Source of the DNA: Methylicorpusculum oleiharenae
GTDB lineage: Bacteria; Pseudomonadota; Gammaproteobacteria; Methylococcales; Methylomonadaceae
Length of the DNA stretch: 64,000 nt
Assembly: GCF_009828925.2 (NCBI RefSeq)
Contig: NZ_WUTY02000001.1
Location: 3,316,492-3,380,491 of the forward strand
Direction: 5' to 3'
Part shown: positions 1,797-51,600 of the stretch, in pieces
Position numbering within the stretch: position 1 is the stretch's first letter
How the letters are laid out: every line of letters starts with the position of its first letter
Program-made: the position numbers and the translations under genes
Notes under the pieces: model-generated
Told to the model about the DNA's origin: nothing
The model's database searches: none
The model's input: only the letters and a program-made list of their open reading frames with translations

Positions 1797-2441
1797 ATGT
1801 CTTACGATATCATTGCTTTTATAGTCTGTTTCCTGCTGGTATTGGCTTATTATGTCTATTTAAAACGGCGCACCCGGCTTGAACCGGAGTCAAGCCTGCA
1901 TTCGCTAAATTCCACTATCCGGGAGCAATGGGTGGAAATGGTGATGACGAGAGGCAATATGGAAATACTGGCTATTCAAACTTTGCGCAACTCTGTCATG
2001 GCGGCAAACTTCATGGCAACAACCGCCATATTGTTGATAATCGGAACCTTAAACTTAAGTGAAAAAATTGGGTCCTGGGCACTCGCTTGGCATCCATCAC
2101 ATTTAGCAGTATCCGTATCCACCGAATTATGGCAACTAAAACTAGGATTATTGCTTCTCAATTTTTCTATTGCCTTTTATTGTTTCTCGATGGCAATACG
2201 TTACTTTAATCATGTCGGCTATATGATTAATGTTCCCGGTTTAGGGTCGACGGATAACGTTTTGTTTAAAAAAACGTGTGCCTTTTTAAACAAAGCAGGC
2301 AGTTTTTATACCTTGGGAACTCGTTCTTTCTTTTTCAGCCTCCCGATCATTTTGTGGTTTTTCGGCCCGTATTTTTTGATGCTGGGTACGATTGGACTAC
2401 TTTGCGGTCTGGCTATGCTCGATAAGGTACCCGGTCATTAG
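1797..2441 (+). CDS. DUF599 family membrane protein
   Basis: This 214-residue protein fits the DUF599 family: a short N-terminal anchor, a conserved REQWVEMVM segment, an NSVMAANFMATTAILLI membrane helix, RYFNHVGYMINVP, and a C-terminal TLGTRSFFFSLPIILWFFGP helix pair. Four hydrophobic helices are visible. AAAGGAAAC precedes the ATG. The function of this family is not known. It stands alone between cydP (divergent) and a minus-strand gene, so it is probably monocistronic. Confidence 0.8.
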   Translation: MSYDIIAFIVCFLLVLAYYVYLKRRTRLEPESSLHSLNSTIREQWVEMVMTRGNMEILAIQTLRNSVMAANFMATTAILLIIGTLNLSEKIGSWALAWHPSHLAVSVSTELWQLKLGLLLLNFSIAFYCFSMAIRYFNHVGYMINVPGLGSTDNVLFKKTCAFLNKAGSFYTLGTRSFFFSLPIILWFFGPYFLMLGTIGLLCGLAMLDKVPGH

Positions 2442-2837: not shown

Positions 2838-5000
2838 TTATCCCTGAAAAGCATCCTGAAGCCTGACCAGCCAAGGCGTGTCAGAATCGGGGTCGACATG
2901 AAACGACAGTGAAGCGGATTTGTGCACCAGTCCTGCTTCATAGGAGGCATTGGGGTTCAATTGACGTTTTTCGATAAAATCCACCAAACGGCGGGCATTA
3001 TAAATTGCCAAGACTTTATTTCCGTTAGTGATCAAATAAGCGGCATTATTTTCGCCGCGTTCAGGATTGCGATTAATCAGTTCTTTCAATAAATTTTTAT
3101 CATCAGCGGAAAAGTTTCTGTAAACAGAATCTTCCCTGTTTTTGCTCAACCCGGTCAGATATTTTGCCAGTGATCCCGATTGCTGGTGTTCTTTGATCAT
3201 GTCGATTTCATGATCGGACAACTCGAAGCTTTCGGCCACCAGATACTGATTTGTTCTATCACCATCATTGGCAAACAAAACGATTTTATCCAGATTCATG
3301 TCGTCAAACGCATTTAGAAATGATTCGGGTGCGTGGATATGTTTGTAAATGGTAATAACCCAGGGCAGGGCGCGGCCGGTTTTGCCGAAACGCTTTTTGA
3401 CACTGCCCACCACCGACAACCTTGATAGTTCGTGTTCGCGGCCCTCGGGTTTTACCAGAAAGGCATCGACGGCGATAATTTGTGTTGTAAAGCCCGCCTG
3501 TTTAAAGTTGGCGATGATGCCTGAATAGCGAGGGCTATAGGGGATTCCCGTGCCGTCATACATCAGATTGATACGATGCTGTTTGGCCCGCATGGCGACT
3601 GAATCGCGCAGCCGGTTGGCAAACGGTTCTACATAGACGTAATCATCACTGTGATGATTGGCGGCGGTCAGCACTTTGTACAAATCACTTTTTTTACGGA
3701 AATCATCCAAAGAAGCGATAACGTAATTGCCGCCACAACTGGCGTGCGCAATTTCTTGTACGGCGGTTTTTCCTGCGCCTGCACCCCCCATTGCCATAAA
3801 GAGTTTGGGGTTCGAGTCGGGCGTTTTACCGGAAAAAATCTCAGCTTCTGCGGCATCCAGAATGCGGATGACTTTGGCCAGTCTTTCATAAGCGATTTCG
3901 ACACTTCGGACCAAACGCTGGTCGCCATTTGCTGCTTTAATCAGTTCTTGTTTCAGTACTTCGTTGTTTGCCAACACAAAAACCGGTTTTTTTTCACCCA
4001 CACATTCTCTGATTAATTCCTGTAATTCGATATGGCTGGGTGAGCGCAGCCCCGTCAGCATGTTGATATCCAGGCAGAACAAAGGTGCTGACCCGGTATC
4101 ACCCAGCGTGATACCGTCAATTTCGGTTTTACCCGGCTGACGCAAATCTTCGGTTCCCGGCAGATAGCCGATGATGTTTTCAGGTGTGCAATAAGGGTAA
4201 TCCGCTATATGTTTGCCGGCTATAAATAATTCTTCACGAATCAACTCAATCGGCATTAAAGCGCCATTAACGGTCACAAGACATTTAACACCGTCGGCTG
4301 TGGTGTGCGACAAAAAAGGAATGCCTGAAATAAACTTTTTATTTTCCGGCCATTTACCGTAGCCGTTGGGCGTATTATTAAGGACTTTGTTACGTAATGG
4401 GTCCAAAGCATGCAGGAAAGCGATGGTCAACAAGGGATGAGCTGAATCGGGGCCATGCAAAGCCTGAGAATCGTTTTGATCAATACGCCGAAAATCGATG
4501 CCATGAGGATAAACGCTTTTAAATGCAGGCAATTTACCCAATAAAGTAATAAACAGATCCAGCGTGATTCGGTTTCCATAGCCAAACGGCCTGACTTCGC
4601 GCATTTTGGCATAAAAATCAGCGAGTCTTTCCGCAATAGTCTCGGTATAAATTACAAAACCATTGTTGTCGAAAATCGCAGTATCCCTGTTGTTGTCCTC
4701 ATCGAGGACCAGACGGGCTATGGTTTTCCGGAATTTTTGACGATTATCCGCATCGACAATTGTTCCGGGCCGATGGCTCACCGTGGTTTGCTCCCGCCAG
4801 TCCTGAAACATTTCCCGGTGTATCCTGGAAAACAGTCCGGTGAGATAAGTAACACGCTTGGTAACGTCATGAGAAATTGTGCCTTCAGCTTCCAGTTGTA
4901 AGCTGGCGAGCACTTGACAGCCTCGGCCAATTGCCAGAGCAGTACGCAGTTTTTTTAGCCGATCATGCGAGGAAATAAAGGGGGCGCGATTTTTATTCAT
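2838..5000 (-). CDS. Fic-like / zeta-toxin-like kinase fusion protein
   Basis: This 720-residue protein has two recognisable parts. Residues 57-155 resemble a Fic fold: RIHREMFQDWR near 59-69 recalls the family's IHR-LFQD-Y segment, and RPFGYGNRITLD at 137-148 sits where Fic enzymes carry HPFxxGNGR. The catalytic histidine is replaced by arginine and the second glycine is missing. Residues 398-560 resemble the zeta toxin/polynucleotide kinase fold: Walker A GGAGAGKT at 405-412, then SLDDFR near 430 and LMYDGTG near 479-485. The linker and the last 150 residues match nothing I know. It appears monocistronic with no antitoxin gene beside it. Zeta proteins phosphorylate UDP-sugars and Fic proteins transfer AMP; activity here is unknown. 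Confidence 0.65.
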   Translation of the reverse strand: MNKNRAPFISSHDRLKKLRTALAIGRGCQVLASLQLEAEGTISHDVTKRVTYLTGLFSRIHREMFQDWREQTTVSHRPGTIVDADNRQKFRKTIARLVLDEDNNRDTAIFDNNGFVIYTETIAERLADFYAKMREVRPFGYGNRITLDLFITLLGKLPAFKSVYPHGIDFRRIDQNDSQALHGPDSAHPLLTIAFLHALDPLRNKVLNNTPNGYGKWPENKKFISGIPFLSHTTADGVKCLVTVNGALMPIELIREELFIAGKHIADYPYCTPENIIGYLPGTEDLRQPGKTEIDGITLGDTGSAPLFCLDINMLTGLRSPSHIELQELIRECVGEKKPVFVLANNEVLKQELIKAANGDQRLVRSVEIAYERLAKVIRILDAAEAEIFSGKTPDSNPKLFMAMGGAGAGKTAVQEIAHASCGGNYVIASLDDFRKKSDLYKVLTAANHHSDDYVYVEPFANRLRDSVAMRAKQHRINLMYDGTGIPYSPRYSGIIANFKQAGFTTQIIAVDAFLVKPEGREHELSRLSVVGSVKKRFGKTGRALPWVITIYKHIHAPESFLNAFDDMNLDKIVLFANDGDRTNQYLVAESFELSDHEIDMIKEHQQSGSLAKYLTGLSKNREDSVYRNFSADDKNLLKELINRNPERGENNAAYLITNGNKVLAIYNARRLVDFIEKRQLNPNASYEAGLVHKSASLSFHVDPDSDTPWLVRLQDAFQG

Positions 5001-5126: not shown

Positions 5127-6152
5127 TCAGCAAATCCGTGGTAAGGGGTCGTCTTCCAATTGTTCAAGCAGCCGTTCGCCGCCGATGGTGGTTTCCAATA
5201 TGACGTGCTTACGCCCATCTTCAATCCGACCGATAATAGCCGCGTCGGTATAGCCCCAGGCATGAAGCGCCGACAATGACTGATTGGCATGCTCAGGGTC
5301 AACAACAGCAACAACGCGGCCTTCGTTGGCCATATAGAGAGGATCGTAGCCCAATATTTCCGAAACGGCTTTGACTTGATCGTGGACAGGAATTGACGAC
5401 TCTAACAGACGAACAGTTTTGTTACAGGCTTGAGTTATTTCGTGCATGACCGTTGCAACTCCGCCTCGGGTGGGGTCGCGCATAAAAGCCAGGCCGGGTA
5501 AAGCCATCAGGATACGGGTAATAGGCAGCACACTGGCCGCATCCGATTGCAACGTGCCGCTGAGGCCGAATTGTTCGCGGGCTAGCATGACTGCTGTGCC
5601 GTGGTCTCCTGCCGTGCCACTCAATAAAATGAGATCGCCGGTTTTGATTTGTTTCAAACCCAGGTTGCTGGCCGTTTTTCTAAAGCCCACGCCTGTGGTC
5701 GAAAAATAAATTCCACCTCCCTCGCCGCGTTTTAAGACTTTGGTATCACCGGCAACGACAGCTATCTTGCATTCCCGGCAGGCATTCGCCATGCTGTTCA
5801 GTACCCGGTCAAGCACGCTGATTTCAAGCCCTTCTTCAATGAATGCAGTCAATGTCATATACAGCGGTTCAGCGCCCGATACAGCAAGATCATTAACCGT
5901 TCCGTAAACCGCGAGACTGCCGATTGTACCGCCCGGAAACTCCAGGGGTTCTACCGTATAGCCATCTGTTGTAATGAGTAAATCATCAGTAGCGACGGGT
6001 ATTTTGAGAGTGGCTGCATCGCTTTGAATATCGAGCGTATCGATGGCCAGGTGCCTGGCGAAGAGTTTTTCTATCAGTTCGCGCATGCGCCGTCCGCCGT
6101 TGCCGTGAGCAAGACTGATATGAGTATCGGGAAATTGGATGGGTGAGTTCAT
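5127..6152 (-). CDS. hypE: Hydrogenase maturation protein HypE
   Basis: This 341-residue protein is a full-length HypE of the PurM/SelD fold. HypE dehydrates its own carbamoylated C-terminal cysteine to a thiocyanate that supplies CN to the Fe of [NiFe] hydrogenase. Visible hallmarks are AHGNGGRRM, the TTDGYTVEPLEFPGG segment, VAGDTKV, FMRDPTRGGVA, and the essential C-terminus PRIC with its final cysteine. It points away from hypCABD, unlike the common hypABCDE order. The intervening 357 bases contain a dispersed repeat. Confidence 0.97.
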   Translation of the reverse strand: MNSPIQFPDTHISLAHGNGGRRMRELIEKLFARHLAIDTLDIQSDAATLKIPVATDDLLITTDGYTVEPLEFPGGTIGSLAVYGTVNDLAVSGAEPLYMTLTAFIEEGLEISVLDRVLNSMANACRECKIAVVAGDTKVLKRGEGGGIYFSTTGVGFRKTASNLGLKQIKTGDLILLSGTAGDHGTAVMLAREQFGLSGTLQSDAASVLPITRILMALPGLAFMRDPTRGGVATVMHEITQACNKTVRLLESSIPVHDQVKAVSEILGYDPLYMANEGRVVAVVDPEHANQSLSALHAWGYTDAAIIGRIEDGRKHVILETTIGGERLLEQLEDDPLPRIC

Positions 6153-6253
6153 GTTAAACTTGTATAAAGTAGGTCGTTATTCATTTTGAATGAACAGCTG
6201 ATGGATTTGAAAAGTGATCGATAGGGTTAGAAAATAAGTTTGATTTACTCCTT

Positions 6254-6390
6254 TCTAATCGAAAAAACGTCTGGTTTCCAGATGGTGTGGGGTGTGTTTG
6301 GCGAGGATGTCGGCAGCAGGGAAGCTGCGGTCAAGCCCCCATGGACGGGTTCACGGTGGTTCTCGACAGACACATCCCGCATCATTAGCC
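6254..6390 (+). repeat. Dispersed intergenic repeat, copy B, between hypE and hypC
   Basis: It begins with the 29-base core (6254-6282) that is inverted at 1581-1609, followed by a GC-richer tail containing a GCAGCAGGGAAGCTGC palindrome (6313-6328). The 73-residue open frame across it (6240-6461) has the low-complexity look of a repeat read as protein and is not called as a gene. It sits in the divergent hypE/hypC promoter region. Confidence 0.65.
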
Positions 6391-6509
6391 ACGTCGAACG
6401 ACTTTTCAGTATGGAAGGCGTAAATCGCTATCAGAGACATAAAAAGGGCCCTATTGTTTAAAGTCGTGTCGTGAGTTTTAATGAGTATATAACAGAATGA
6501 GGTAGTGCG

Positions 6510-6746
6510 ATGTGCCTGGCTTTTCCAATGCAGATTGTTGAAATTAATGGTTTTGAAGCCCGTTGTTTATTTAAAGGGATACAGCGCACGGTTAATTTGT
6601 TTTTATTACAGGATGAAGAGATCCAGGTGGGTGATTACGTTCTGATTCATGTTGGTTATGCGCTGCAGAAAGTTGATGAAGAGGAGGCCTTTTCCACCTG
6701 GGAATTGCTGGATCAACTCGCCGTCAATGAATCAGACTATGCATGA
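6510..6746 (+). CDS. hypC: Hydrogenase maturation chaperone HypC/HybG
   Basis: This 78-residue protein starts MCLAFP, with the invariant Cys2 that holds the Fe(CN)2CO unit together with HypD and then binds the hydrogenase large-subunit precursor. The usual P-G after the MCLA segment is P-M here. Length and the VGDYVLIHVGYAL core are typical. A GAGGTAG ribosome site precedes the ATG. It overlaps hypA by eight bases, so the two are translationally coupled. Confidence 0.95.
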   Translation: MCLAFPMQIVEINGFEARCLFKGIQRTVNLFLLQDEEIQVGDYVLIHVGYALQKVDEEEAFSTWELLDQLAVNESDYA

Positions 6747-7089
6747 ATTGTCGCTGTGTGATGATTTGATCAGACAGGTTCAATTGCTTGCGGATCAGCA
6801 TCATGCTCAAAATATCGCGCGAGTTACTGTCAGTTTAGGCACATTATCAGGTGTCGAGCCGGTTTTGCTAGTCCAGGCATTTGAAATTCTCAAAGCGGGA
6901 ACTGCCGCGTCGAATGCCCGTCTGATCATTAACACCGTACCGGTCAGAATTAGATGCGATCATTGCGGACGTGAAGCCGATGTTGATCCCAATAGACTTA
7001 TATGCCCGGCATGCAAAAGTTTGGATACGCAACTGCTCAGTGGCAGCGAGTTCATCTTGAGTCAGGTTGAGCTTTTTGTGGCGTCCTGA
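6739..7089 (+). CDS. hypA: Hydrogenase nickel incorporation protein HypA
   Basis: This 116-residue protein delivers nickel with HypB. The family's N-terminus is MHELS, with His2 a nickel ligand, so I placed the start at the ATG at 6739 inside the end of hypC rather than at 6649 or 6727. A zinc site is formed by CDHC and CPAC near residues 74-92. It overlaps hypC by eight bases and is separated from hypB by 248 bases that hold a palindromic repeat. Confidence 0.95.
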   Translation: MHELSLCDDLIRQVQLLADQHHAQNIARVTVSLGTLSGVEPVLLVQAFEILKAGTAASNARLIINTVPVRIRCDHCGREADVDPNRLICPACKSLDTQLLSGSEFILSQVELFVAS

Positions 7090-7149
7090 ATGGATGCGGC
7101 AGGTAATCGGTCGGCGCTCTCATTTGAAAGAGTAAGAATTTAAGATTGG

Positions 7150-7312
7150 TAACTACTCGCCCCCTTGGAATAGCGGGTGTAGGTGATTGATTGAAAAGGC
7201 TTCTGCAACAGGGATGCTGCAGAGAGCTACAGGGAAGTATTCATGCGTCCTTTGAAATCAAGCACCTACACCCAAAAAATGGGGGGTAAGTAGATACTTA
7301 GTTTGAACCAAT
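7150..7312 (+). repeat. Palindromic intergenic repeat family, copy 1 (hypA-hypB gap)
   Basis: The core at 7175-7273 opens with GGGTGTAGGTG and closes with its exact reverse complement CACCTACACCC. A second, imperfect arm (ATTGATTGAAA against TTTGAAATCAA) extends the stem, and C-rich and G-rich tracts lie outside it (7160-7165 and 7280-7286). A shorter copy lies at 11147-11297. The similarity extends outside the palindrome on both sides, ending near TAGTTTGAA. In RNA it would form a long hairpin inside the hyp operon. Confidence 0.8.
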
Positions 7313-7337
7313 CCATTCAAGTTAAGGGTTAAAACAG

Positions 7338-8174
7338 ATGTGTACTACCTGTGGTTGTCAAATTACATCAGGAAACGAGTCTCAGATTCCAGTGGAAAAG
7401 TCGGCTGACGGGGGGGCAACTTCCGTTTTGACCCGGCTGATGGCCGGTAACGATCTGCAGGCTGACCATAATCGCATGCATTTTGATCAACTGGGTGTTT
7501 TGGTCATTAACTTAATGTCTTCGCCCGGCTCGGGTAAAACCGCATTACTTGAAGCCACGATTGTGCAGGGTCGGGAAAGGTTTCGAATGGCCGTGATTGA
7601 AGGGGATCTGGAAACTGAAAATGATGCACTGCGCATCCGCGCACACGGTGTTCAGGCGCACCAAATCACAACCGGTTCGGCATGCCATCTGGATGCCCAT
7701 TTAGTCCACGAGGCGCTGCATAAAATCGACTTTTCAGGCATTGATGTGCTATTTATTGAGAATGTCGGTAATCTTGTTTGTCCTGCCAGTTTTGATTTAG
7801 GTCATCATCTCAATGTGATTCTGTTGTCCGTTGCGGAAGGGGATGACAAACCAGCCAAATATCCGGTGATGTTCCGCGCGGCGGATGTGATGCTGATTAC
7901 CAAAACAGATTTGTCGCCCTATCTGGATGAGTTCTCAAATGAAAGGGCAGCGCAAAATTTACGCAATCTGGCCAATCAGGTACCGATTTTTCATTTGTCC
8001 GCACGGAACGGAGAGGGCATCGATGTCTGGTTGGACTGGATGGAAGAGCAGATTCAGCTTCAAAAGCAACACGTTAAAAATCGGCCTTCATTCCGGCCTG
8101 TGCGACAGCCTGATGCCGGGTTGCATGCAACCCGCATTTTATTAAGCCCCGTCCATCCTGTAAGCAAGTCATAG
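7338..8174 (+). CDS. hypB: Hydrogenase nickel incorporation GTPase HypB
   Basis: This 278-residue protein is the GTPase that drives nickel transfer from HypA into the hydrogenase active site. It carries the N-terminal high-affinity nickel motif CTTCGC (residues 2-7), the P-loop SSPGSGKT at 61-68, and the G-domain metal ligands Cys116-His117 and Cys149 (in ENVGNLVCP). There is no histidine-rich storage stretch. It is followed after 12 bases by hypD. The C-terminal 35 residues, past the usual end of the domain, look unstructured. Confidence 0.97.
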   Translation: MCTTCGCQITSGNESQIPVEKSADGGATSVLTRLMAGNDLQADHNRMHFDQLGVLVINLMSSPGSGKTALLEATIVQGRERFRMAVIEGDLETENDALRIRAHGVQAHQITTGSACHLDAHLVHEALHKIDFSGIDVLFIENVGNLVCPASFDLGHHLNVILLSVAEGDDKPAKYPVMFRAADVMLITKTDLSPYLDEFSNERAAQNLRNLANQVPIFHLSARNGEGIDVWLDWMEEQIQLQKQHVKNRPSFRPVRQPDAGLHATRILLSPVHPVSKS

Positions 8175-8186
8175 AGAGAGCAGATA

Positions 8187-9305
8187 ATGGCCTTAAGTGC
8201 TCAGCAATGGCTGGTAAAAATAAACGAATTGCCGGTGACTGAAACGACAAAAATCATGAATGTCTGCGGGGGTCATGAGCGCACAATTGCTTTGTCAGGG
8301 CTTCGCAGCGTGCTGCCGGAATGGATAGAGCTGATACCCGGGCCGGGGTGTCCAGTTTGTGTCTGTCCCGAGGAAGATATTTATCAAGCTATACAGCTTT
8401 CGCTAGAGAAAAATATCATCCTGGCCGCCTTCGGCGACATGCTCAGGGTGCCTGTCAATGCGGGTAAACAGGCTATTCGTACCTTATCGCAGGCTAAAGC
8501 TACCGGTGCGGATATTCGAGCGATTGCCAGTCCTATCGAGACGTTGATGATTGCAAAAGAGAATCCCGGGCAAACCGTCGTATTTTTTGCGGCGGGGTTT
8601 GAAACTACATTCGCGCCTGTGGCCGCAATGCTGGCAGAAGGCGCGCCTGGAAATCTGCTGATTTTGAGCAGCGGTCGTCTGACATGGCCGGCAGTGGCTT
8701 TGTTGCTGGATTCAGAGCAGCCGAATTTCGATGCGCTGATCGCGCCAGGGCATGTGGCGACGGTGATGGGTCCCGAACAATGGCAGTTTGTCGTTTCGCG
8801 CCATCAGCTTCCTGTTGCGATTGCCGGTTTTACTCCGGACAGTTTACTGGCAGCCATTTACTCGGTGCTGCGGCAGCGCATGGATAACCATTTGTTCGTC
8901 GATAATTGTTATGAACAAGTGGTCAAACCCGGAGGTAATCGCCGTGCTCAACAGTTTCTGTCTCAAGTTTTTGAGGTGTCCGATGCACCGTGGCGGGGTA
9001 TCGGTACGATTCCTCATTCTGGATATACCTTACAAGCGCATTTTGCCCACCATGATGTTCAGCTGCATTTTGGGTCTTTCCGGGAAGACGCGCGCCGTCA
9101 TGTCGGCGAAATGCCGCCCGGTTGCGATTGCGCGCGCGTCGTTATGGGAAAGATCAAGCCGGTTGACTGTAAATTGTATGGCCGTTTGTGTGTGCCGAGT
9201 CAACCGGTAGGGCCTTGTATGGTTTCTGATGAAGGTGCCTGCCGGATTTGGTGGAGTGCCGGTATAAAACCTGATGTTGGTCTAAAAAGCGCTGAACTGA
9301 CTTAA
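8187..9305 (+). CDS. hypD: Hydrogenase maturation protein HypD
   Basis: This 372-residue protein is the 4Fe-4S scaffold on which, with HypC, the Fe(CN)2CO group is built. Conserved motifs are CGGHE at 27-31, GPGCPVC at 52-58, FAAGFETT, and C-terminal PPGCDCARVVMGKIKP. The start has a GAGAGAG ribosome site. It is the last gene of the hypCABD cluster; hypF, which makes the carbamoyl group, is not in the window. Confidence 0.97.
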   Translation: MALSAQQWLVKINELPVTETTKIMNVCGGHERTIALSGLRSVLPEWIELIPGPGCPVCVCPEEDIYQAIQLSLEKNIILAAFGDMLRVPVNAGKQAIRTLSQAKATGADIRAIASPIETLMIAKENPGQTVVFFAAGFETTFAPVAAMLAEGAPGNLLILSSGRLTWPAVALLLDSEQPNFDALIAPGHVATVMGPEQWQFVVSRHQLPVAIAGFTPDSLLAAIYSVLRQRMDNHLFVDNCYEQVVKPGGNRRAQQFLSQVFEVSDAPWRGIGTIPHSGYTLQAHFAHHDVQLHFGSFREDARRHVGEMPPGCDCARVVMGKIKPVDCKLYGRLCVPSQPVGPCMVSDEGACRIWWSAGIKPDVGLKSAELT

Positions 9306-39201: not shown

Positions 39202-40299
39202 TTAATGAACGGTAGTGTCGGTATTTTTTACCGCACTATCGCTCGGTTTATCGGGATTTAAACAGACTTCTGCCTGCCATTCCCAGTTTCGGATATTTCG
39301 ACTCCAGCGCTCCGGTTTTTTGGCCTTAGCGGCCTCATAAACAGCTTGGCGTTGCCTCAGGATCGCCCGGTCTTCACCCGTGTGACGTTGCTCAGGCGTT
39401 ACAAATTGAATGCCGCTGTGCCGATGCTCATGGTTGTACCAGTCGACAAAGTCGGTTACCCAGTCCCTGGCGGCGGTGACCGAGGCAAACGGTTGGGTCG
39501 GATACTGGGCGTCGTATTTTAGGGTTTTGAACAACGACTCGGAATACGGGTTGTCATTACTCACCGCCGGGCGACTCCGCGAGGGTGTGACGCCAAGCTG
39601 CTGCAAGGTTGCCAACAGCGTTGCCCCTTTCATCGGGCTGCCGTTGTCGGAATGTAACACCAACTGGTGCGGTGGAATCCCTTCTCGTTGGCAGAGATCC
39701 GTGATCAGATCGGCCGCCAGTTCGCTGTTTTCTTGTTCATAAACTTGCCAGCCGACAATCTTGCGACTGAAGATATCCATGAACAGATACAGATAGAAAA
39801 ACTGGCCTTTGACGAGGCTGGTCAAATAGGTGATATCCCAACTCACCAGTTGTTTCGGTGCCGTCGCGGTGAGGGCTTTCGGCTTACTACGCTCGACCGA
39901 TGGACGGCAGGCATGACGGTGTTTGACTTGTTTCGCCTCGCGAAAAATGCGGTAAATCGTCGACTCCGACGCATAATATTCACCGCGTTCGGCCAACATC
40001 GGCACGATCTGATGCGGTGTTTTGTCTTTGAACTCATCGCTGTTGGCTAGGGCTAATACCTGAGCGCGTTCTTCGTCACTCAAACGATTACAAGGCACGT
40101 GTTGACGGCGCGTGCGACCGTCAACCGGCACGGCTTCGGGACGTTGCCAACGTTGTAACGTGCGCAGCGGTAGGCCCATCACCTCGGCAGCTTTGGCTTT
40201 ACGGGCTCCGTGATCAAACGCTTCGTTAAATAAGGTGAGTAAATGGGTGCGTTCTGCAAGAGGGATCATGGCGCCTTTTCCTCCCAGAACGCGTGGCAC
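39202..40299 (-). CDS. IS3-type transposase OrfB (DDE integrase)
   Basis: The 365-residue frame carries an rve-type DDE core: WDITYL (first Asp), HSDNGSPMKG (second Asp) and SNDNPYSESLFKTLKYD (Glu). It begins in the -1 frame of orfA at a GTG (40299). It would normally be made as an OrfAB fusion through the slippery A-AAA-AAG at about 40302-40308. Confidence 0.9.
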   Translation of the reverse strand: MPRVLGGKGAMIPLAERTHLLTLFNEAFDHGARKAKAAEVMGLPLRTLQRWQRPEAVPVDGRTRRQHVPCNRLSDEERAQVLALANSDEFKDKTPHQIVPMLAERGEYYASESTIYRIFREAKQVKHRHACRPSVERSKPKALTATAPKQLVSWDITYLTSLVKGQFFYLYLFMDIFSRKIVGWQVYEQENSELAADLITDLCQREGIPPHQLVLHSDNGSPMKGATLLATLQQLGVTPSRSRPAVSNDNPYSESLFKTLKYDAQYPTQPFASVTAARDWVTDFVDWYNHEHRHSGIQFVTPEQRHTGEDRAILRQRQAVYEAAKAKKPERWSRNIRNWEWQAEVCLNPDKPSDSAVKNTDTTVH

Positions 40300-43538: not shown

Positions 43539-44642
43539 CTGATGTTACGCAGCCCCATCCCAAAAAGCGTATCATTTCAGGATGGATAAAGAAAAAACAG
43601 CGCTCTATACAGACTACCTGATTTGCAACCAAGGCTTGGCAACGGCGACCAGCCTGTCGGCGATGCTCGACGGTGAAGTGAGTCATGACCAAATAACCCG
43701 CCACCTGTCCGCGAGGCTATACACCTCAAAAGACCTGTGGGTTGATGTCAAACCCACCGTGCGTCAGATCGAGCGGGACGACGGCTGTCTGATCTTCGAC
43801 GACACCGTCCAGGAGAAGGCGTTTACTGACGAGAACGAGATGATGTGCTGGCACTATGACCACTGCAAAGGCCGCTCGGTCAAAGGCATCAACCTGTTGA
43901 ATGCGTTGTACCACAGCGGGGACGTGTCGATCCCGGTCGCCTTCGAAGTGGTGAAGAAGCCCCATCAGTTTTGCGACATAAAAACCCGCAAGGTCAAGCG
44001 GGCGGCGGAGTTCACCAAGAACGAACTGATGCGGTCAATGGTCGCCACCTGCGTGGCGAACGCCATCAAGTTCCGCTATGTCCTGACCGACAGCTGGTTT
44101 GCGTCGAAAGAGAACTTCGAGTTCATCCTCAAGAAAGGCAAACACTTCATCAGCGCCTTGAAGGACAACCGCTTGGTGGCGTTGACCGAAACAGACAAGA
44201 ACGAAGGGCGCTTTGTGCGGATCAGTCAGCTGGAATTGACGGATCAACAGGCGGTGCGCGGCTGGATGAAGGGCTTCCCCCAGGAAGTGCTGTTCGTCCG
44301 GCGGGTCTTTACAAACAAAGACGGCAGCACCGGTTTGTTGAATCTGGTGTGCAGCGATTTGGCGTGCGACGGCGGACAAGCCTCAACCCTCTATGAAAAA
44401 CGGTGGAAGGTCGAGGAGTTCCATAAATCATTAAAATCCAATGCGGGGCTGGCAAAGTCGCCTACCCGCACCGTCACCACCCAAAACAACCACATATTCA
44501 TGACCATCTATGCCGTGTTCAAGCTGGAATGTTTGAAGATCAAACATAAAACCAACCATTTCGCCATGCGGGCTAAACTTTTCATAAAAGCTAACCAGAT
44601 AGCTTATGCAGAGTTGCAGAAATTACGGGCTGCGTAACATCG
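43539..44642 (+). mobile_element. Complete IS4-superfamily-like element with target duplication
   Basis: The ends GATGTTACGCAGCCC (from 43541) and GGGCTGCGTAACATC (to 44641) are inverted repeats. The 9-base sequence TTTATCAAA occurs directly outside both ends (43530-43538 and 44643-44651), a clear target duplication. It is 1104 bases long and holds one transposase gene. Confidence 0.9.
43582..44637 (+). CDS. DDE transposase of the 43539-44642 element
   Basis: This 351-residue transposase shows the DDE pattern CLIFDDTVQEKAF, then YVLTDSWFASKENF, and C-terminal YEKRWKVEEFHKSLKSN (the Y-R-K-E-like motif of IS4-type enzymes). Its GC-rich codon use differs from surrounding sequence, which suggests recent arrival. 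The subgroup (IS701-like is possible) is not certain. Confidence 0.88.
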   Translation: MDKEKTALYTDYLICNQGLATATSLSAMLDGEVSHDQITRHLSARLYTSKDLWVDVKPTVRQIERDDGCLIFDDTVQEKAFTDENEMMCWHYDHCKGRSVKGINLLNALYHSGDVSIPVAFEVVKKPHQFCDIKTRKVKRAAEFTKNELMRSMVATCVANAIKFRYVLTDSWFASKENFEFILKKGKHFISALKDNRLVALTETDKNEGRFVRISQLELTDQQAVRGWMKGFPQEVLFVRRVFTNKDGSTGLLNLVCSDLACDGGQASTLYEKRWKVEEFHKSLKSNAGLAKSPTRTVTTQNNHIFMTIYAVFKLECLKIKHKTNHFAMRAKLFIKANQIAYAELQKLRAA

Positions 44643-47268: not shown

Positions 47269-48628
47269 CATAAGTATCTACACATCTTTTCCTAAAAATT
47301 GCTGAGCGGTTGCCTTCAAACTATCCAGTTCTTCTTGAGAATAGGCCTCCATGATTTCAAGCATGGAGAGGAAGACCCACAACCCCGACAACAGCGCTGG
47401 ATTCGTAAACTCCTTTTTGTGGCGCATTTGCCTGCCGCTGAGCTTGATCAGAAATAGTCTTAATTCAGCCGCTTCCTTGCTTTTGTCGGCGGCTATGGCC
47501 CAAACCGTAACACAGGCCATGCTAGCCACCAAGAGGCGTTTGGCAATGGCCAGGGCTGATTCCTGTTGCCACGATTCGAGGTGGTGACCTGCCGATTTGA
47601 CCAGTTTGAAGAAACACTCGATTTGCCAGCGCCAGTAGTACCATAGCGCAATAGTCGAAGCATCGACATCTTTTACATTGGTCAATAGCAGCCATTCCGC
47701 CAACACATCACCTTCGTCGGACAAGAGGCGACTGACCACCAGCCTTGCCGCTACAGGAATGCCAGGCATAGCCGGCTTTTTGCTTTTCTTCTGACTCGGT
47801 TTGGCGGGACGGGTTAGCGTCACATCGGTTTCTGCCACCCACTGCCAATAAGTCTGACCCTGATAACGGACTTCCCGAGTCTTGCTGAACGCCAGCTTTT
47901 GCGCCACGGTTTTACAAGCCATGGGCTTAGCCTGGTAGTCCACTTTGGGATTATCCTTGACGCGTACCAGCCAGTGGCTACCCGTCGCTTCCCAGCGGCG
48001 GATATGGCCGATGGAATCGCCTTCTCGATCAATCAGGTGGACTAATGGCTTGGCAAAACCTTGTCCGTCCAAAAACTGAATGCAATCGCTGACTTCATCC
48101 AAATGGTTTTGGACGATGGGCTGGGGATTGGCTTCCTGATAGGTCGCGAAACTCCCTTCGCTGCTAACCAGTCGCTGCGCTACCGGCGCCAAGGGCTGCC
48201 CCGTTTGGTCGCTAATAATGAGGCTGGTTTGCAGATCGTAGCCGATGTCGGTGTCATGGGTGATCGCGTAAGTGTCCGGTTTGTTGGCATGTTTGTAACT
48301 CAATCGGGACCAGTCATGGACGCATAAAGCGAAGTTCATGCAATGAGCCAAGATGCCTTGGTGCGCGGCGACCGTGAGCGGTTCTTGGAGCTTCGATAGA
48401 CTGACCGATTCGTTTTGGTAGAAGCGCCACGCCGCTTGTGTGCTGGCAAAGCTGCTGATTTTGTCAGGCAACGCTTTTAATCCAGCACTCAGGCGTTCAC
48501 TTGAATTCATGTGTTCACTCACCAGGCGCTGGTAGCGGTCGTTTAGGCGTGAGTCCACGCCGGATAGGCTTTTTTAAAATCATGCGGCATCATGCCAAAA
48601 TTTACGATAAGTCGTGTAGATACTTATG
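47269..48628 (-). mobile_element. Complete IS4-type element with 9-base target duplication
   Basis: The 15-base inverted ends CATAAGTATCTACAC (47269-47283) and GTGTAGATACTTATG (48614-48628) are perfect. CTTTAAGAG lies directly outside both (47260-47268 and 48629-48637). It is 1360 bases long, with one transposase. It separates lemA from an ISL3 remnant. Confidence 0.95.
47278..48558 (-). CDS. IS4-family transposase
   Basis: This 426-residue transposase resembles the Tn5/IS50-type branch: an N-terminal DNA-binding part (RLSAGLKALPDKISSFASTQAAWRFYQN), ITHDTDIGYD (Asp), LIDREGDSIGH (Asp), and YYWRWQIECFFKLVKSAGH (Y-R-K-E region). It appears intact. Confidence 0.92.
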   Translation of the reverse strand: MDSRLNDRYQRLVSEHMNSSERLSAGLKALPDKISSFASTQAAWRFYQNESVSLSKLQEPLTVAAHQGILAHCMNFALCVHDWSRLSYKHANKPDTYAITHDTDIGYDLQTSLIISDQTGQPLAPVAQRLVSSEGSFATYQEANPQPIVQNHLDEVSDCIQFLDGQGFAKPLVHLIDREGDSIGHIRRWEATGSHWLVRVKDNPKVDYQAKPMACKTVAQKLAFSKTREVRYQGQTYWQWVAETDVTLTRPAKPSQKKSKKPAMPGIPVAARLVVSRLLSDEGDVLAEWLLLTNVKDVDASTIALWYYWRWQIECFFKLVKSAGHHLESWQQESALAIAKRLLVASMACVTVWAIAADKSKEAAELRLFLIKLSGRQMRHKKEFTNPALLSGLWVFLSMLEIMEAYSQEELDSLKATAQQFLGKDV

Positions 48629-49815: not shown

Positions 49816-51600
49816 TCAATTCTCCACTTGCTGCGATAAGTGCGCACCTGAATCGTCGCGCTGCGTTAAATGGCGGGCAATGGCTAATGTCGCATCCAGA
49901 TTAAAACCGGGTGAAAAGCCGGATCGTTTTAACTGTTCTACATACAATTCGGGATAGCTTGCCAGTGTGGTTAAAATCGGATTCGCGGCAGTTTCTCCCA
50001 AGCCGCAATGGCTAAAGTTTTTAACGATCAGGCATATTTCACTCAGTTTTTCCATGTCCACAGCGGAACCATGGCCGTCAATGATCTTGTTTAACTGATT
50101 TTTCAACAGCGAGGTACCGACCCGGCAAGGTGCGCAAAAGCCGCAGCTTTCATGAGCAAAAAATTCGGTAAAGTTCTGCACGATATCAAAAATGTTACGC
50201 GTTTTATTAAATACCATGAACGAGCCGGCAGACGATAAGTCTTCAAATGCAAGTGTGCGTTCCAGTTCCCGGTTGGAAATAAAAGTACCCGATGGACCGC
50301 CAATTTGTACGCCCATGACCTCTTCGGCGCCACAATCCGACAATATCTCGCTGATGCGGGTGCCAAACGGGTATTCGTAAATACCCGGCCGAGCACAGTC
50401 GCCACTGATGCTGAGTAATTTGCTGCCGGTAGATTGTGGTGTTCCGACATCGGCAAACCATTGTCCGCCTTTTATCGCAATATGAGTGGTGGCGAAAAAA
50501 GTTTCGACATTGTCGACTACCGTCGGTTTGCGCAGATAACCGCAGATAACCGAGTTGGGTGGTTTAGTGCGGGGAATTCCGGGCTTTCCCTCCAGCGATT
50601 CGATTTGCGCCGATGCCTCACCGCAAATGTAAGCACCTGCACCCATGCGTATTTCGATGTCGAAATCAAAGCCCGCTTGCCCAAGAATATTGGACCCAAG
50701 CAAACCCTGATCGCGGCGGTTTTGTAAAATTTTCTGGAGCTTTTCGTAGAGGAATAAATATTCGGCTCGCAAATAGACCAGGCCTTGAGTGGATCCGATA
50801 ATCGCCGCGCACAGTGTCATGCCTTCGAATACCTGATCTGCATACAGGTTGAGTAACATCCGGTCTTTGAACGTACCCGGCTCGCCTTCATCGGCATTAC
50901 AAATCACATAGCGGGGCGTAGCTGCCTGGACAGCGCAGGTGCGCCATTTCAATGCCGTCTTGAATCCGGCACCACCCCGGCCTCGCAAATTGGATAAGTC
51001 AACTTCCGCCAAGGTTTCAGTCAAGCCTCGATTAAAAGTCGCCTTTATCGCATCACCATTACTGAAGGGCTGAGTCAACAGCAGGCCGGGTTTATAGAGG
51101 GTTTCTTCAACTTGGAATAACTCTGCCGGCCAATCGATTAAAGGTGTTTCCTGTTCAATCAAAGCTGCAATGGTGTCGATTTTGGGTCGATCCAGCCGAG
51201 GCAGAGGATAGCCATTGATCAGGCCTGCCGGTCCCTGATCACACATGCCGGTGCAGGAAGTATTATTAAGGCTGACCAATTCATCCTTTCGGACTTCGCC
51301 CACTTTGACTTTTAAGGTTTCGGCTGCATAGCTCAGCAAGCTTTCTTTGTTTTGCATGCGATCTGTAATTGAGTCGCTGAACAAAATGTCGTACCGGCCT
51401 TGTGGTGTGGAATGCAGAAAGCTGTAAAACTCAACCACCGCAATGATCTGGGTGCGAGGAATATTGAGTTTATCAGTCAGGATATCAATGGCCGTTTCCG
51501 GAATATGCCGGTAATGGGCTTGTACCGCTCGTAATATTTTTAACAGCCTGACCGGTTGGTAGTCTGCTTCCGCAAGGACTGTTTCTAAAAACGTCTTCAT
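49816..51600 (-). CDS. hoxF: NAD-reducing hydrogenase diaphorase subunit HoxF
   Basis: This 594-residue protein holds the NAD(H) and FMN site: N-terminal NuoE-like domain (1-140) with CTGMC, then NuoF-like parts GRGGAGFKTALKW (NADH), NADEGEPGTFKDR (FMN) and SCGFCAPCRVGT (4Fe-4S). Only one cysteine pair of the NuoE-type cluster is visible. It matches the ~600-residue HoxF of bidirectional [NiFe] hydrogenases. hoxU follows after one base. No catalytic hydrogenase genes follow. Confidence 0.92.
   Translation of the reverse strand: MKTFLETVLAEADYQPVRLLKILRAVQAHYRHIPETAIDILTDKLNIPRTQIIAVVEFYSFLHSTPQGRYDILFSDSITDRMQNKESLLSYAAETLKVKVGEVRKDELVSLNNTSCTGMCDQGPAGLINGYPLPRLDRPKIDTIAALIEQETPLIDWPAELFQVEETLYKPGLLLTQPFSNGDAIKATFNRGLTETLAEVDLSNLRGRGGAGFKTALKWRTCAVQAATPRYVICNADEGEPGTFKDRMLLNLYADQVFEGMTLCAAIIGSTQGLVYLRAEYLFLYEKLQKILQNRRDQGLLGSNILGQAGFDFDIEIRMGAGAYICGEASAQIESLEGKPGIPRTKPPNSVICGYLRKPTVVDNVETFFATTHIAIKGGQWFADVGTPQSTGSKLLSISGDCARPGIYEYPFGTRISEILSDCGAEEVMGVQIGGPSGTFISNRELERTLAFEDLSSAGSFMVFNKTRNIFDIVQNFTEFFAHESCGFCAPCRVGTSLLKNQLNKIIDGHGSAVDMEKLSEICLIVKNFSHCGLGETAANPILTTLASYPELYVEQLKRSGFSPGFNLDATLAIARHLTQRDDSGAHLSQQVEN

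Follow-up and report, generated by a model that had tools for sequence, protein, structure and literature searches.

The 64,000-nucleotide stretch of the Methylicorpusculum oleiharenae genome analysed here (the window; source genome of 5.85 Mb in 3 contigs) carries a gene for a 720-residue protein in which a degenerate, predicted Fic-fold domain at the N-terminus is joined to a zeta/AvrRxo1-like P-loop kinase, and the family formed by its relatives within the Methylococcales appears to be undescribed. Zeta and Fic domains have mainly been described from toxins and effectors. Here both folds are joined in the product of a chromosomal gene that follows genus and lacks a visible antitoxin, which suggests recruitment of the two for regulation or metabolism, and 95 sequences in which the Fic histidine is uniformly replaced by arginine or lysine make the role of a Fic fold lacking this residue testable. 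As a tentative account, and the most economical one, we favour a stand-alone kinase, encoded on the chromosome, with a Fic-fold domain that does not AMPylate but binds a ligand and acts as regulator or partner of the kinase. The original prediction, made from the sequence of the window, had placed Fic-like and zeta-like domains in one 720-residue protein, and this was upheld by a Zeta_toxin profile match and by the predicted Fic fold.

The zeta fold of the C-terminal part was seen both by sequence and by model. Residues 388-580 matched the Pfam Zeta_toxin profile (PF06414; 7.2e-17, 61.9 bits compared to a gathering score of 22.3), which also matched 40 of 40 family members, and the part has the AvrRxo1-type kinase fold; the score against the NCBIfam PezT model (NF041574) was 28.4 bits, below its cut-off of 470. 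Conservation was counted over members with scores above 800 bits and open reading frames (ORFs) of at least 400 residues, of which 112 were found and 95 were kept after dropping identical cores (alignment A1 leaves out the broken or partial loci L038, L043, L045 and L046; alignment A2 leaves out L023, L038 and L043). Counted by hand along the alignment rows, K411, D432, T484, I486 and D466 correspond to Lys46, Asp67, Thr118, Arg120 and Glu100 of zeta, in which Asp67 is the suggested base and Thr118, Arg120, Thr128 and Glu100 contact UDP-N-acetylglucosamine (UDP-GlcNAc) (PMC3062530). The P-loop lysine K411 and the candidate catalytic aspartate D432 were present in 95/95 members, as was T484. 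The complete set of UDP-GlcNAc contacts was not found: isoleucine takes the place of Arg120 in 95/95 members, the counterpart of Glu100 varies (D 73, G 10, S 4, Q 4, H 3, Y 1), and the counterpart of Thr128 (G494 in the window protein, from a manually extended register) is threonine in 36/95. Because the Arg120 contact is isoleucine throughout, the substrate probably differs from UDP-GlcNAc, by analogy with AvrRxo1, which phosphorylates NAD and shares with PezT the ATP-binding but not the UDP-GlcNAc-binding residues (PMC5087710). The AvrRxo1 kinase (4z8v) has 15% identity to this part, and its NAD substrate serves as an analogy only; the Zeta/PezT toxins (1gvn, 3q8x, 2p5t) are also among the closest known systems. 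Two PHROGs families without assigned function matched the protein, phrog_25145 over residues 393-509 (2.4e-4) and phrog_30033 over residues 102-132 (0.0061). As a separate observation, a 665-residue frame elsewhere in the source genome (L002:136-2130; outside the window, C1 ~3391000) oddly pairs COX15/CtaA (residues 4-309) with an SRP54/FtsY-type GTPase (386-661), and its Zeta_toxin match falls in the P-loop region of the GTPase.

For the N-terminal part, structure speaks more clearly than sequence. Residues 1-265 were modelled alone with AlphaFold2 (AF2), and all 50 listed Foldseek matches of this model, as well as all 50 listed matches of the Fic part in a VIA structure comparison, were Fic proteins; residues 5-203 are predicted to have a Fic fold, and the fold comparison that the original prediction had proposed for this region thus came out in its favour. 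The proposed profile comparison gave a divided answer. Pfam Fic (PF02661) had no match in the window protein at E<=1, short of its gathering score, and matched 3 of 40 members (best 0.049), while the PDC-S04 profile matched 34 of 40 (best 1.6e-4), so that sequence support for a Fic identity is weak. PDC-S04 was also considered as a sign of a defence role, which we rejected because this profile is itself Fic-type. The degenerate signature at residues 137-148 lies in register with the HPF of E. coli Fic (alignment E 1.9) and, by hhalign, with Fics of the window's taxonomic family (P 0.033; 25 of 30 Fic loci used). In alignment with EcFicT, FDNNGF falls on the matching segment, and we infer that it is the target-binding flap.

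The canonical Fic signature is quoted as HPFx(D/E)GNGRxxR (PMC8401265). In the family it reads [RK]PFxYGNR[IL]TLD, exactly in 66 of the 95 non-redundant members, with one departure in 27 and with two in 2. The histidine is replaced by arginine or lysine (position 137: R 84, K 11, His none), the acidic metal ligand by tyrosine (position 141: Y 94, F 1), the second glycine mostly by arginine (position 144: R 84, K 6, Q 2, W 2, S 1), the next arginine by isoleucine or leucine (position 145: I 49, L 44) and the last arginine by aspartate (position 148: D 91, N 4), and we therefore speak of a Fic-fold domain and not of a Fic AMP transferase. Other positions are conserved within the family, with G142, N143 and L147 in 95/95 and T146 in 91/95, and the flap residues F110, D111, N113, G114 and F115 are invariant (95/95). 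Expressed as the mean fraction of the top residue, conservation was 0.86 in the motif, 0.94 in the flap (residues 108-116) and 0.75 in the rest of the Fic domain, which is not expected of a decaying leftover. In Bartonella Bep8, the best of the listed Foldseek matches of the Fic part (4py3), structures show a motif degenerated to PFxxGNE, and the side chain at the second glycine position makes binding of a triphosphate nucleotide appear impossible (PMC8401265); R144 occupies this same position. Bep8 and the family also share the retained PFxxGN with a bulky residue after it (PMC8401265); compared to the Bartonella Beps (including BepC, 4wgj), the family has arginine or lysine for the histidine, tyrosine at the acidic position and an attached kinase, at 16-17% identity. 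Four signature positions besides the histidine also differ from the canonical motif, which makes it very likely that AMP transfer has been lost. The replacement of the catalytic histidine by a basic residue was thus confirmed in the homologue survey that had been suggested for R137 and K411, and of the two consequences offered for it, loss of AMP transfer or an altered reaction, the first is the better founded.

In the account that we favour, this single-gene, chromosomal protein would use its C-terminal part as a kinase that is most likely active, binding ATP at K411 with D432 as the base and passing its gamma-phosphate to a small-molecule substrate, which is probably a nucleotide-like compound different from UDP-GlcNAc. 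The Fic-fold domain would hardly be able to AMPylate because of the replacements listed above. The conservation of its loop and flap points to a retained capacity to bind a ligand that bears a phosphate, or else a partner modified with AMP, and through this binding it would control the kinase or present the kinase substrate. What has been shown is conservation in sequence, predicted folds, the distribution and purifying selection; activity of the kinase, binding of a ligand and control are deduced from these. A published pairing of AvrRxo1-like kinases with Fic/Doc domains (PMC4938570; see below) counts against this account, lowering our confidence in it slightly and raising somewhat that in a toxin.

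The main rival, which we consider unlikely, is a catalytically active Fic part whose chemistry has changed, with Arg/Lys137 and R144 serving another transfer or a hydrolysis and with a kinase that produces or uses up the substrate of the Fic part. The near-uniform residues at positions 137, 141-143 and 146-148 and the five invariant positions of the FD-N-GF flap would fit such an enzyme, and there are precedents: non-canonical Fics perform phosphocholination or phosphorylation (PMC8401265), AvrB is a glycosyltransferase (PMC10866546) and one Doc clade has glutamine for the histidine (PMC4454073). However, the domain lacks the general base, the acidic metal ligand and the two arginines of the motif, and a ligand-binding pseudoenzyme predicts the same conservation. 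Equally doubtful in our view is a wider proposal, according to which the family is a new two-headed methanotroph enzyme, with an Arg/Lys-centred Fic-fold site of novel reaction or ligand and a zeta-type kinase acting on a new metabolite, that serves normal physiology and not a toxin-antitoxin function.

Relatives of the gene were found in 142 of 251 sampled Methylococcales genomes, including 125 of 217 of good quality, and in 30 of 48 genera. A single match was present in 135 of the positive genomes and two in 7, six of which held pieces of one protein. Full-length matches besides the gene itself had 57-97% identity, and matches below 57% were short fragments. A scan of genome_contigs, which finds close relatives only, returned 43 loci, the best a Methylicorpusculum metagenome-assembled genome (MAG) at 97% identity; four of the 43 titles lack a group name (L034, L035 and L046, 'uncultured proteobacterium'; L038, 'Gammaproteobacteria bacterium'), and cultured isolates in the scan include Methylovulum miyakonense HT12 and Methylobacter psychrophilus Z-0021. 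Outside the Methylococcales none was seen in the sampled genomes, with the source genome as the only positive among 398; the N-terminal part alone recovered the source genome and one more of its family among 321, and the C-terminal part alone the source genome among 299. Phage and plasmid records gave no tblastn match, and IMG/VR gave none by query patterns, a search that finds close relatives only.

A gene tree of 70 of the 142 positive genomes, built by a quick method and with 14 of 67 inner branches open, required 22 changes for 23 genus labels, the least possible, compared to a shuffled mean of 52.9. Counted alone, genus g11 required 2 changes, and the four family labels required 4 (least 3), which leaves room for a transfer or an anomalous placement. 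The fusion gene is under purifying selection, with whole-gene ratios of nonsynonymous to synonymous substitution (dN/dS) of 0.045, 0.073 and 0.040 for the three pairs among the window, L006 and L023. One copy on a MAG contig (L038:3768-6007) is split into three reading-frame pieces, by sequencing error or real decay. The gene co-occurred with pmoA (PF02461) in 119 of 251 genomes; a strict tie to methane oxidation was rejected, as 88 genomes had pmoA only and 23, some of them incomplete, had the fusion gene without detected pmoA (neither in 21). Among the pmoA-positive genera without the fusion gene were g4 (0/9 genomes), g22 (0/11) and g33 (0/12).

We confirmed the earlier remark that no antitoxin is adjacent, as none was found in scans of neighbour families, small ORFs or Arc1-type motifs. 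No conserved neighbour was detected among ORFs of at least 80 residues within 9 kb, where flanks are often short; the commonest family occurred in 12 of 74 loci, which overlap in that the source genome is present twice. No family of small ORFs occurred in more than 12 of 70 loci (flanks of at least 1.5 kb on both sides in 29 of 70 and of at least 500 b in 67 of 70), and the five of these 12 with genus codes all belong to g11. The Arc1-type antitoxin motif, KExFD(x25-27)(Y/L)ExxYY (PMC4938570), was absent from 5851 segments of at least 50 residues in 75 sequences (the window and the 74 loci, with the same short flanks). A toxin-antitoxin pair was rejected on the lack of a conserved neighbour and of an Arc1 motif in these scans. 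Promoter and terminator scans gave no excess over shuffles.

The closest published arrangement comes from two uncultured bacteria, Parcubacteria sp. SG8_24 (protein of 893 residues) and Candidatus Saccharimonas aalborgensis (742 residues), whose AvrRxo1-like proteins end in Fic/Doc domains and are each followed by a small Arc1-like ORF, in Saccharimonas with another ORF between (PMC4938570). In these long proteins, too, a kinase of the zeta/AvrRxo1 type shares its chain with a Fic-type domain. Compared by description only, they carry the Fic/Doc domain at the C-terminus, whereas it is N-terminal and degenerate in the Methylococcales family, which is spread through one order of methanotrophs and in which the Arc1 scan found nothing. 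The pairing of a kinase with a Fic fold is therefore already known, and the family with a degenerate N-terminal Fic fold and no antitoxin found is a variant of it; the fusion is unusual, as had been proposed, but not without precedent (PMC4938570). Fic and zeta domains are named as separate proteins in PMC3750634, PMC3758288, PMC10732033 and PMC4791399, and a text search of PMC4454073 found no mention of 'zeta'. No study of the Methylococcales gene was found in a literature search that leaves subscription journals largely outside. The weight of the finding is limited accordingly: each part is known, the pairing has been published for other bacteria (PMC4938570), and the role proposed here is a guess. 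FicT proteins of FicTA pairs (EcFicT 5jfz/5jff, VbhT 3zcb, Fic-1 8wt0) differ from the fusion, which is much longer, has no catalytic histidine and has no antitoxin gene found beside it. In a separate search with the full model, Foldseek aligned the viral BFVD entries D1LV25 (923 residues; 848 columns, E 1.5e-9) and C7F476 (1499 residues; 835 columns, E 2.7e-9), each with a template modelling (TM) score of 0.25 by query length; these may also combine such domains or may be long, loose alignments only.

A distinctly unlikely alternative, made somewhat likelier by the published pairing, is a toxin restrained within one chain, whose Fic and middle parts silence the zeta/AvrRxo1-like kinase until it is released by a signal or a protease. 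Both PezT and AvrRxo1 are toxins that have antitoxins (PMC3062530, PMC4938570), AvrRxo1-like proteins with Fic/Doc domains occur in a toxin-antitoxin arrangement (PMC4938570) and no antitoxin gene was found beside the fusion gene, so that any control required would have to come from the chain itself or from another place. Against this stand the loss of the Arg120 contact in all 95 members, a distribution that follows genus with no match in phage or plasmid records, and the negative Arc1 scan of 75 sequences. A secreted effector against predators or competitors is improbable: Fic and AvrRxo1-type domains do occur in injected effectors (PMC8401265, PMC5087710), but even the most frequent neighbour gene is limited to 12 of 74 loci, and the fusion gene is single-copy and under purifying selection. 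The earlier suggestion of a toxin, effector or multi-gene 'system' thus found no support, as the gene tracks genus and has neither a conserved partner nor a phage or plasmid match. That the Fic resemblance is a chance one and the N-terminal domain an unrelated helical bundle is highly improbable given the two structure comparisons, the PDC-S04 matches and the agreement of the motif register with E. coli Fic and with family Fics.

Table 1 Features of the fusion gene and its product (window coordinates).
Feature	Coordinates	Strand	Basis
720-residue Fic-fold/zeta-kinase fusion protein gene	2838..5000	-	ORF, 720 residues; relatives in 142/251 order genomes
Predicted Fic-fold domain, residues 5-203	4392..4988	-	AF2 model of 1-265; Foldseek and VIA matches
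FDNNGF, residues 110-115, at the place of the Fic flap	4656..4673	-	Register with E. coli Fic; 'flap' inferred
Degenerate Fic signature, residues 137-148 (RPFGYGNRITLD)	4557..4592	-	Conservation counts; register with HPF of known Fics
Middle part, residues 204-385	3846..4391	-	Strands, then helices; Pfam: nothing above cut-off
Zeta/AvrRxo1-like kinase, residues 386 to about 690	2931..3845	-	
Walker A GGAGAGKT, residues 405-412	3765..3788	-	K411 in 95/95
D432, counterpart of zeta Asp67 (suggested base)	3705..3707	-	Alignments; 95/95
D482-G483-T484; T484 counterpart of zeta Thr118	3549..3557	-	D482 and T484 in 95/95
Conserved C-terminal stretch, residues 677-704	2889..2972	-	Conservation; model pLDDT (predicted local distance difference test) <50 from 684

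The ranges of VIA matches with zeta start at residues ~307-311, inside the middle part of Table 1. The C-terminal stretch (consensus K.QLNPNASG..GLLHK), one of the most strongly conserved 12-residue segments in the protein, could complete a site or take part in partner binding.

In the window, a HypE-like gene (AIRS domains) is followed by a gap of 126 bases and then by the fusion gene. A family of 341-residue neighbours, the same gene by length and position, occupies the place of the HypE-like gene in 5 loci, and an upstream stretch is common to 6 loci, the source genome being twice among them. On the opposite strand, ~0.4 kb past the 3' end of the fusion gene, lies a gene for a DUF599 protein (1797..2441, +). 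Further away, one integrase-core and two DDE transposase genes (39202..40299, -; 43582..44637, +; 47278..48558, -) mark a stretch with several insertion-sequence genes, and a 594-residue protein with 2Fe-2S thioredoxin-like and 51-kDa FMN-binding domains is encoded at 49816..51600 (-). We take the latter to be HoxF-like; it lies ~40 kb from genes at 5127-9305 that, from their sequence, are presumably hydrogenase-maturation-like and of which the HypE-like one was assigned by Pfam (AIRS).
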